A stretch of DNA of 64,000 nucleotides, from contig CANKLE010000002.1 in the NCBI GenBank assembly GCA_947483075.1, positions 124,001 through 188,000 of the forward strand, written 5' to 3'. The notes under the pieces were generated by a model that had not been told where the DNA came from, did not search any database, and was given only the letters and a program-made list of their open reading frames with translations. Of this stretch, positions 34,387-62,939 are shown one piece after another; the first letter of the stretch is position 1; every line of letters begins with the position of its first letter. A program made the translations under genes and the position numbers. Source of the DNA: Flavobacteriaceae bacterium (GTDB lineage: Bacteria; Bacteroidota; Bacteroidia; Flavobacteriales; Flavobacteriaceae).

Positions 34387-34390
34387 TTTT

Positions 34391-34439
34391 GTTTCAAGTT
34401 TCAAGTTTCAAGTTTCAAGTTTCAGGTTTCAAGTTTCAC
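34391..34439. repeat. Heptamer array, 7 units of GTTTCAA (ACTTGAA on the other strand)
   Basis: gtttcaa gtttcaa gtttcaa gtttcaa gtttcag gtttcaa gtttcac. Confidence 0.9.
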
Positions 34440-34502
34440 GAAATGTGTAGTTCCGCTGCGCTATAATCCTTTTTAAATAATACCTCTTAGTATAATTATC
34501 AC

Positions 34503-34533
34503 AACCTTAAACCTTAAACCTGAAACTTGGAAC
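34503..34533. repeat. Heptamer array in opposite orientation (AACCTTA x2, AACCTGA, AACTTGG, AAC)
   Basis: Shares the 14-nt inverted copy AAACCTGAAACTTG with the array at 34391..34439. Confidence 0.85.
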
Positions 34534-61012: not shown

Positions 61013-61061
61013 CACGAATGCACGAATGGATAAAGTCGAAAGTCATAAAGTCGTAAAGTCG
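61013..61061. repeat. Short direct repeats: CACGAATG x2 (61013-61028), TAAAGTCG x3 (61031, 61046, 61054)
   Basis: Read directly. Confidence 0.85.
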
Positions 61062-61097
61062 AATGTCACATGGATAATAAAGCAATTTTGTTTTCTA

Positions 61098-61140
61098 ACC
61101 TCAAACTTAACCTTTAAACCCTAAACCCTAAACTCTAACC
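61098..61140. repeat. Heptamer array (ACCTCAA ... ACCCTAA ACCCTAA ACTCTAA)
   Basis: Seven-nt periodicity, with one interrupted section. Confidence 0.8.
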
Positions 61141-61186
61141 AAAAACACAAACAGACAAAAAAACAAGAGCCTGTCCTTAGAACGCA

Positions 61187-61237
61187 ACCTAAAACCTACC
61201 ACCCAATACCTACCACCCAATACTGACAACCGACAAC
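61187..61237. repeat. Heptamer array: ACCTAAA ACCTACC ACCCAAT ACCTACC ACCCAAT ACTGACA ACCGACA AC
   Basis: Seven consecutive in-register heptamers, each starting AC[CT]; contains a perfect 14-nt tandem duplication. Confidence 0.88.
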
Positions 61238-61256
61238 AAAATAAACACACCCCCAG

Positions 61257-61272
61257 CCCCTCTCAAGAGGGG
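61257..61272. repeat. Perfect hairpin CCCCTC-TCAA-GAGGGG
   Basis: Direct reading; no T run, so not called a terminator. Confidence 0.7.
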
Positions 61273-61308
61273 AGTATTTGAAGTATACTAAGAACTAATT
61301 CGATTAAC

Positions 61309-61349
61309 GATTTTTGATTGGTAATTTTTGATTTTTGATTTTTGATTTC
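61309..61349. repeat. Heptamer array ATTTTTG (3 perfect units plus degenerate copies)
   Basis: Direct reading. Confidence 0.85.
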
Positions 61350-61366
61350 AAAAGTTTACTAAGAAC

Positions 61367-61400
61367 GTCATTGCGAGGAGGTACGACGAAGCAATCATAT
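61367..61400. repeat. Dispersed-repeat-like element GTCATTGCGAGGAGGTACGACGAAGCAATC
   Basis: Matches from memory the GTCATTGCGAG...GAAGCAATC interspersed repeat seen in many bacterial genomes. Confidence 0.65.
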
Positions 61401-61490
61401 TTCGCAACACAGATTTTTATAATTCGAGAAATAATTAAAATTTTTCAGATTGTTTGGATTTCTTTAATCTGTGTTCCAAAAATCTTTGCG

Positions 61491-61549
61491 TCCCGAGACC
61501 TCGGGATTGCGTCTTTGCGAGAGAAAAATACCGCATAATTGTTTCTCGC
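61491..61549. repeat. Palindrome TCCCGAG-AC-CTCGGGA (61491-61506) followed by inverted pair GCGAGAgaAA / TTTCTCGC
   Basis: Direct reading; embedded in TTTGCGTC-rich repeat-like DNA. Confidence 0.7.
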
Positions 61550-61645
61550 CAAGGCGCCAAGCCACAAAGAAAAAACAAACTGAATTGCAGTTGCAGTAAA
61601 TAGTTGTAAACTTGTGTTGTATTTTTTAATTAAAATTTTAAAGAA

Positions 61646-62374
61646 ATGAAAAATAGATTTCTACAATTTTGCATATCCATTTTGGTGGTTTTATTTTTTG
61701 GTTGCTCCACGAGTTCAGATGGTAATGGGAATTCTACAACTGATGTTGATGGAAATGTTTACCAATATGTAACCATCTGCAGTCAAACATGGCTACAAAG
61801 TAACTTGAACGTTTCCAAATACAGTGATGGTACACCCATTACTCAAGTAACAAGTCCAACAGATTGGGAGAACCTAACCACTGGAGCTTGGTGTTACTAT
61901 GAAAACAATACAGCGAACGGCCCCGTTTATGGCAAGTTGTACAATTGGTATGCTGTAGCTGGTATTTACGATGTGGCATCACTAGGCAATTCAGCATTGC
62001 GCAAAAAACTGGCTCCCATGGGTTGGCATGTTCCGAGTGATGGGGAATGGACACAACTCACAGATTGTTTAGGAGGCGAAAGTGTAGCAGGTGGCAAAAT
62101 GAAGGCAACAGGAACCATCCAAGCAGGTAATGGACTATGGCAAGACCCAAACACAGCTGCCACTAATGAATCAGGATTTACAGGACTTCCGGGAGGTTAT
62201 CGCAGCGGCATTGGGATGTTCAACTACGTTAGCAACGACGGCAACTGGTGGAGTTCGTCAGAGAACTCTACTACAAATGCCTGGGTCCATGGCCTGGGTC
62301 ACTATGATAGTTATGCGTACAGAGGCAACAGCAATAAGGACTACGGTTTTTCAGTAAGATGCGTTAGAGATTAG
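61646..62374 (+). CDS. FISUMP (Fibrobacter succinogenes major paralogous) domain lipoprotein
   Basis: Lipobox LFFGCSTSS; TWLQSNLNV, YGKLYNWYAV, PMGWHVPSDGEWTQL, WWSSSEN, GFSVRCVRD. Confidence 0.9.
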   Translation: MKNRFLQFCISILVVLFFGCSTSSDGNGNSTTDVDGNVYQYVTICSQTWLQSNLNVSKYSDGTPITQVTSPTDWENLTTGAWCYYENNTANGPVYGKLYNWYAVAGIYDVASLGNSALRKKLAPMGWHVPSDGEWTQLTDCLGGESVAGGKMKATGTIQAGNGLWQDPNTAATNESGFTGLPGGYRSGIGMFNYVSNDGNWWSSSENSTTNAWVHGLGHYDSYAYRGNSNKDYGFSVRCVRD

Positions 62375-62383
62375 TTTTGAAAA

Positions 62384-62860
62384 ATGCAAAAAACATTAAA
62401 TAAAAAGAATTACTACAAGCTTTACAGTTATCGATTTGCTTTTTCGCAAATGAATAAAGCAATAGACGGAAAATTCTATCTTGAAGCTATCACCATTCAG
62501 GAAAGCATAATTACCGATAGAATATTGAATTTTGTAATTAATAAGAATATTAAAATTATCAAGGAAGATGAACTATATAGGACATTAGTAAACTTAAACA
62601 AGTTAATAGAATACTCTAAAAGCTATTTTGATGATGAAAATTTATATGATGATTTGAATAATTTTAGAAAAGATAGAAATAAATGCATACATGCAATTGT
62701 AAAATCATATCCCGGCAATCCAACAATAAAAGTCAATGATTTTCAGAAATTGGCTAAAGAAACAAGTTTAAATGGAAGAATATTAACCAGAAAGGTTGAT
62801 GCTTGGCATAGGAGAATGAAGAAAAAATCTTTAGTTAATGCAATTGATTTAGTTTTATAG
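62384..62860 (+). CDS. Hypothetical AT-rich helical protein with HEPN-like RNxxxH motif
   Basis: 158 aa; FYLEAITIQESIITDRIL and FRKDRNKCIHAIVKSY. Confidence 0.65.
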   Translation: MQKTLNKKNYYKLYSYRFAFSQMNKAIDGKFYLEAITIQESIITDRILNFVINKNIKIIKEDELYRTLVNLNKLIEYSKSYFDDENLYDDLNNFRKDRNKCIHAIVKSYPGNPTIKVNDFQKLAKETSLNGRILTRKVDAWHRRMKKKSLVNAIDLVL

Positions 62861-62877
62861 CAAAGCGGAAATTCTTC

Positions 62878-62907
62878 ACCTGAAACTTGAAACCTAAAAC
62901 CCGAAAC
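62878..62907. repeat. Heptamer array ACCTGAA ACTTGAA ACCTAAA ACCCGAA AC
   Basis: Four in-register units between two co-directional genes. Confidence 0.88.
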
Positions 62908-62939
62908 AATTATCTTTACCCCACAAAAAACCATCTCCC

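Follow-up and report, generated by a model that had tools for sequence, protein, structure and literature searches.

Between the genes of this Flavobacteriaceae bacterium there are short arrays of degenerate heptamers, several of which lie within positions 61098-62907 of the window (the whole stretch of 64,000 nucleotides that was analysed). What are these arrays, and why do they hold a period of seven nucleotides while the repeated unit changes? We favour, at a probability of roughly 0.7, the explanation that they are the terminal inverted arms, or the solitary remains, of very small IVS-like mobile elements.

A period-7 repeat class

The preliminary description of this DNA listed five ACYYNAA arrays, beginning at positions 34391, 34503, 61098, 61187 and 62878, and all five are found there. 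It also held that they belong to a non-random repeat class in which register is kept, and this is upheld by period-7 counts far above Markov expectation. There are 14 matches to two in-register ACYYNAA units in the window where 0.3 are expected, a number that none of 100 shuffles equals, and a search of the 2.4-Mb genome for three units returns 49 matches versus 0 for the reversed control.

Tandem runs were examined in a 762-kb sample of the genome composed of the window, stretches around arrays and 20 unselected tiles, wherein genes were called with a simple codon-usage caller and exact runs were then counted for each period. There are 62 exact period-7 tandems in 66.7 kb of intergenic sequence, compared to a Markov expectation of 0.2, and 12 in 689 kb of coding sequence. 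Thus, the arrays are mainly intergenic. Exact intergenic tandems number 54 at period 14 and 26 at period 21, and only 0 to 4 at each of the other periods from 4 to 24. Period 7 is therefore by far the dominant tandem period of the intergenic DNA of this genome. The part of the sample that was not selected for arrays, reported separately, holds 22 intergenic period-7 tandems (0.6 expected) and two coding ones. Because the frequency is neither at the random level nor equal in coding regions, the repeat class is real.

Although the period of seven is shared, the ACYYNAA frame proposed for the class is too narrow. There are 36 distinct units among 93 arrays, where random heptamers would give about 83, and examples include AACCTGA, AACTTGA, AACCGAY, AACTCAT, AATTATT, AAGTGGG, AACCTAM and GATTTTT. 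A stand-alone ACYYNAA class was rejected for this reason, as the period is common to many units. Enrichment in convergent gaps is modest: across four genomes, arrays occupy 25% of these gaps, compared to 20% of tandem and 8% of divergent ones.

Arrays within the window

The intact example in the window occupies positions 34391-34529. Its left arm (34391..34440, minus strand, G/T-rich on the plus strand) begins 4 nt past the stop codon (TAG) that closes a small ORF, and comprises about seven in-register GTTTCAA/GTTTCAG units. The loop (34441..34502) holds CGCTGCGCTATAATCC and the recurrent word CTTAGTATA, and the A/C-rich right arm (34503..34529, plus strand), AACCTTAAACCTTAAACCTGAAACTTG, adjoins the stop codon of a convergent gene. 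The two arrays form an inverted pair, and the RNA fold of 34388-34530 has z = -3.7. Like all modules of the window, this one is gene-less.

Positions 61098-62907 constitute a repeat-rich spacer around two accessory genes, in which solitary A/C-rich arms and one G/T-rich array are found but no complete element. The first array (61112..61140, plus strand) is built of AAACCCT units, and no complementary partner was found for it. A degenerate A/C-rich array of ACCTAMC/ACCCAAT units (61187..61230, plus strand) has a period of 14, with two perfect copies at 61194-61223. The G/T-rich array (61309..61348, plus strand) consists of GATTTTT units, which are also found flanking a four-helix-bundle gene at another locus of the genome (L244). 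Finally, the A/C-rich array at 62878..62907 (plus strand) reads ACCTGAA ACTTGAA ACCTAAA ACCCGAA and lies 32 nt upstream of a DUF4920 start codon. The three A/C-rich arrays, at 61098, 61187 and 62878, stand alone, and folding of 61098-61227 and 62874-62910 yields no structure. At a two-unit threshold, 15 of the 23 ACYYNAA-bearing gaps of the genome sample are solitary, including those of this stretch.

Three other features of the window were observed in passing. The 12-mer TTCTTAGTATAC is present at 34487, 61284 and 61356 and in about 25 other sampled gaps, where it occupies module loops and edges in both orientations. The sequence CGTCATTGCGAGGAGGTACGACGAAGCAATC at 61355-61399 resembles a short palindromic dispersed repeat of other bacteria. 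An ORF of 158 amino acids at 62384-62860 has no Pfam or NCBIfam match, and by eye its RKDRNKCIHA segment recalls the RxxxxH motif of HEPN proteins.

Inverted pairs and unit turnover

It is common for arrays to be paired as the inverted arms of one module, which the preliminary description had overlooked. At several loci the left-hand array is on the minus strand and the right-hand one on the plus strand, and in all eight gaps with both orientations the left array is G/T-rich and the right array A/C-rich. Some of these pairs form near-pure hairpins between ordinary genes (L041, z -7.0; L044, z -8.3), and arrays can also be nested, as at position C1:270.4k of this genome. When orientation is read outward from the nearer gene in four genomes, the arrays are G/T-rich by 97:18 where gaps are tandem and by 18:7 where they are convergent, and there is no bias in divergent gaps (10:9). 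This distribution fits a feature borne by read-through transcripts, its 5' arm being G/U-rich and its 3' arm A/C-rich.

Two simple readings of such structures were set aside. The hairpins are not terminators, since they occur within co-directional gaps such as that of L041, lack a G+C-rich stem and U tract, and are also found as pairs outside convergent gaps. The polarity had also suggested that G/T-rich repeats are added to break ends in a telomere-like manner, but this was dropped because divergent gaps are unpolarised and no reverse transcriptase was found in the genome. A hairpin-rich insert of 30-50 bp (ACCCGAGCGAAGCGAACAGGCGAAGC or CTCGAGTCCCGAAGTTTCGGGACGAACAGATGGAGCACAGCGG) also occurs in or beside heptad arms at six loci (L036, L039, L043, L178, L189 and L202), and is present in some species and missing from the orthologous gap in others.

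Matching gaps were compared in three near relatives, which are Flavobacterium MAGs; among RlmL orthologs, only the three nearest provided useful gaps. Arrays are present in both members of 39 ortholog gap pairs, in one member of 21 and in neither member of 221. They often lie at the same gene edge in relatives even when the unit differs greatly, and this turnover of units with period and place retained had likewise been missed. For example, past the stop codon at 34387 there are GTTTCAA repeats in this genome versus GTTNTCN heptads in relatives, with mirrored right arms. Some sites are empty in one relative, and array pairs are sometimes swapped in place for another unit, which plain insertion does not explain. 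The 65-bp loop of one site stands in opposite orientations in different species (alignment score 50 as reverse complement versus 12 forward). At one orthologous locus the arms co-vary across 14 species (p 0.0013), a result to be read with their shared ancestry in mind.

A four-helix-bundle gene between the arms

One gap that is short in this genome holds an insert in two relatives, wherein a four-helix-bundle ORF (S23, 23S rRNA IVP; PF05635) is situated between inverted heptad arms. There are four PF05635 genes in this genome and at least one in 60 of the 61 genomes of the genus. All four are armed (for example, GTTGTCAGTTGTCGGTTATCGG before and AACAGACAACCCACAACAGACAAC after the gene), as are most of the 28 others in the genus, by inverted arrays of 7- or 8-nt units.

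Flank complementarity was scored by aligning the 130 nt upstream of a gene with the reverse complement of the 80 nt downstream. The mean for 32 PF05635 genes is 19.4, compared to 9.5 for 103 small control genes of this genome (p 2e-14; 95th percentile of the controls, 14) and 11.3 when the partners of PF05635 flanks are swapped (p 4e-12). A later set of 24 loci, some of them shared with the orthologous sites of the first set, gives a mean of 20.3, and 79% reach the control 95th percentile. The association extends across the Bacteroidota (15.6 versus 10.1, p 8e-9) and to 13 cyanobacterial plasmid loci (16.5 versus 10.4, p 0.005), and lag peaks at 7 and 14 are seen in these further sets. Plasmid matches to PF05635 are mostly from Nostocales cyanobacteria, the classical home of STRR heptamers. 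PF05635 genes are armed even in genomes that are nearly devoid of other heptad arrays, which argues that the arms come with the gene, as opposed to its having landed in existing arrays.

A version with arms of the kind first described is also found. In four relatives (G152, L415; G151, C10:48854-49415; G091, L418; and G008, L426, upstream of a sufD-like gene) a four-helix-bundle gene lies between ACYTGAA arms, and the right arm of the G151 element has about 14 units. None of the four PF05635 genes of the present genome carries ACYTGAA arms.

The number of PF05635 genes is a poor guide to the number of arrays. Long heptad arrays occur at 2 per 400 kb in PF05635-rich Bacteroidota and 0 per 360 kb in PF05635-free ones, so that they are not clearly commoner in the former, and gene dosage as a driver of array number is not supported. 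In this genome the figure is 20 per 400 kb although it holds just four PF05635 genes, which indicates that dosage does not set array abundance. Arm units specific to each protein were rejected as well, because protein similarity and arm similarity correlate only weakly across loci (rho 0.13, p 0.018).

The nearest solved structures of the family are 2gsc (Xanthomonas campestris XCC0516) and 2rld. Some further occurrences are worth recording. At one locus (G046, L273) a gene-less inverted heptad pair (AGTGATT/AATCACT) immediately precedes a guanylate-kinase-like gene, and directly beyond that gene is a four-helix-bundle gene that bears this unit too. In Picosynechococcus PCC 7003 the cas10-cmr3 gap contains a four-helix-bundle element, and in PCC 7002 it is empty. 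On a plasmid of Synechocystis sp. PCC 7338 (L399) this gap contains a Uma2-family endonuclease gene, beside which no heptad arms were seen.

Genes of a second family, GxxExxY (PF13366, PDDEXK_3), also have inverted arms (20.6 versus 11.9 with partners swapped, p 1.5e-9). The period of these arms is 9-11 (about 10) rather than 7 (difference from PF05635 arms, p 2.5e-8), and they have no polarity. Arm words at the PF13366 loci (L356-L385) include CACAAAG, GCGTCTTTGCG and CACGGATT, and positions 61013-61580 of the window contain words in this style, such as CACGAATG and GCGTCTTTGCG, that are gene-less there.

Insertion as a unit

The arms are parts of elements that in full form carry the four-helix-bundle gene and insert as a unit, a point that had also escaped notice. 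This is best seen on Nostocales plasmids. At the first site, two loci are filled (L306 and L394) and two are empty (L386 and L388). Their flanks are 97-99% identical, and the filled loci differ from the empty ones by arm, ORF and arm, a clean insert of 423 bp in L306. The 5-bp sequence GTAAT, which contains the stop codon TAA, is present on both sides of the insert. At a second site (L309 and L393 versus L392) there is a likely 5-bp duplication, TTCTA, with one base difference adjacent, and at a third (L314) the overlap is 3 bp. An empty site is also seen for L310, L311, L312 and L308, but the junction has diverged. In Flavobacterium, inserts are present or absent between relatives, and target duplications are not clear.

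Copies are also found at unrelated loci. The L309 element (640-1057) matches other plasmid loci at 78-81%, and the homology has its edges at the arms; L387 is a truncated copy. Thus, two hallmarks of a transposable element are observed, namely an empty site with target duplication, and copies at unrelated loci whose homology ends at the arms. The plasmid of L393 carries a second insert, of 283 bp, which lacks an ORF and is made up of nested arms built from a CAGGAGT unit. This is the unit of the complete element on the same plasmid, and the insert is direct evidence for gene-less derivatives. Its nesting resembles that at C1:270.4k.

A proposed small mobile element and alternative explanations

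Given the arms, their link to the gene, the insertion of the whole as a unit and the gene-less insert with the same arms, the best reading of the arrays of the window is that they are copies of IVS-like mobile elements, either gene-less or decayed. In complete form, such an element would be about 420 bp in length and comprise a G/T-rich 7-nt array, one S23/IVP ORF (PF05635, TIGR02436) and a complementary A/C-rich array. It would enter the DNA between genes, in many cases at a stop codon, and leave a short (5-bp) duplication of the target, and the elements of Flavobacterium probably move in a like manner. Most arrays of the present genome would then be gene-less copies, either single or nested.

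The arms may fold into a hairpin in DNA or in read-through RNA. The regular 7-nt spacing would suit repeated binding by an oligomeric four-helix-bundle protein, which, alone or with a host enzyme, might let the element copy itself into new sites. The hairpin would maintain the complementarity of the arms, and slippage or strand switching could alter the sequence and copy number of the units.

A bolder version of this scheme is possible, although we consider it doubtful. Perhaps the S23/IVP protein itself mobilises a new class of transposable element that is spread over Bacteroidota and Cyanobacteria, and probably over Xanthomonas and Beggiatoaceae as well. The distance between its protomers might set the 7-nt period of the arms (about 10 nt for GxxExxY/PF13366), so that most STRR-type heptamers of bacteria would be its footprints.

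The strongest competitor, which we judge unlikely, is polymerase slippage that favours 7-nt steps, wherein inverted copies arise by hairpin strand switching and the four-helix-bundle genes are passengers. Slippage has been proposed as the origin of bacterial heptanucleotide repeats generally (Mrazek 2007, as cited in PMC4679880 and PMC4692102). In many bacteria heptamers outnumber all other long simple repeats, array length and unit vary between close relatives, and array abundance is uncoupled from PF05635 copy number, all of which accord with this explanation. However, it does not predict the small repertoire of 36 units in 93 arrays or the dispersal of single units over many loci, nor does it account for armed PF05635 genes where other arrays are nearly absent, or for an arm-gene-arm unit that inserts with target duplication.

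It is more improbable still that the arrays are kept as RNA or DNA sites for a regulator of translation or mRNA stability at gene ends, comparable to TAACTGA in Beggiatoaceae. Such a role would suit arrays that often abut stop or start codons, the presence of a hairpin within a 78-bp gap between co-directional genes, and a polarity seen in tandem and convergent but not divergent gaps, as expected for action in read-through RNA. Yet presence, absence and unit sequence vary freely among close relatives with no evident common gene function, and the insert brings its own gene and arms.

Movement of REP-like palindromes by a RAYT (Y1) transposase, or of retro-elements by a reverse transcriptase, would match the dispersal of palindromes and GCGAAGC-type hairpin inserts between genes, as well as the weak relationship of the four-helix-bundle family to the DGR protein Avd, but we rejected it as very improbable because neither Y1 nor RVT_1 was found in this genome at E 0.001.

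Relation to known elements

Among the closest known systems is the intervening sequence (IVS) of 23S rRNA that bears an S23p/IVP ORF in Coxiella and Leptospira (PMC4990558). Both have complementary ends capable of forming a stem, both carry one ORF of the PF05635 family, and their sizes are close (428 nt for the IVS and about 420 here). The Coxiella IVS, with its stem and the same protein family, has been described as unclear in origin, as have the origin of the S23/IVP proteins and their role in rRNA IVSs (PMC4990558), and IVSs have long been suspected to be selfish or mobile. In the present material, stem-capable ends are found at the 34391/34503 pair, at other pairs of this genome and at PF05635 flanks, and an ORF matching PF05635/TIGR02436 lies between the ends in relatives and at four loci of this genome, but not in the window. 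Unlike the IVS, which resides in 23S rRNA, all loci read here lie between protein-coding genes. Other differences from the IVS are the ends, which are built as arrays of 7-8-nt units, the observed target duplications, and the common occurrence of gene-less and nested copies.

The arrays also agree with STRR-type repeats in being intergenic, of period 7 and more frequent than chance, and the initial pointer to the cyanobacterial STRR heptamers was right. In the portions consulted, the accounts of GGGNATC in Xanthomonas and Nostoc (Rehm 2015; PMC4692102) and of TAACTGA in Beggiatoaceae, cyanobacteria and Bacteroidetes (MacGregor 2015; PMC4679880) likewise describe intergenic period-7 repeats near gene ends with species-specific units, including inverted pairs in Xanthomonas and positions adjoining start codons. 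Those portions treat the repeats as stand-alone, and neither a four-helix-bundle link nor insertion as a unit was seen in them. Xanthomonas campestris also has the S23p protein of solved structure (2gsc). In the open-access literature, as distinct from subscription journals, we found no report that joins heptamer repeats to four-helix-bundle elements.

Like MITEs and classical insertion sequences, the proposed elements have inverted repeats at their termini, duplicate the target, occur both with and without a gene, and can be nested. Unlike in MITEs and insertion sequences, no transposase is recognised, the four-helix-bundle ORF being the only one present, and the terminal repeats are periodic and change their unit while the period stays.

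Implications

Heptamer repeats have been puzzling in several bacterial groups, as they have so far been given no function, nor any origin other than polymerase slippage. The elements described here offer an explanation for them, by which two puzzles would merge, that of the bacterial heptamer repeats and that of the orphan S23/IVP (four-helix-bundle) proteins. Annotators would gain a reason for the many scattered genes labelled 'four helix bundle protein'. If armed units move with target duplication and no known transposase, they would be among the smallest mobile elements known. Moreover, if this is true, what moves an IVS becomes directly testable with a construct of about 420 bp.
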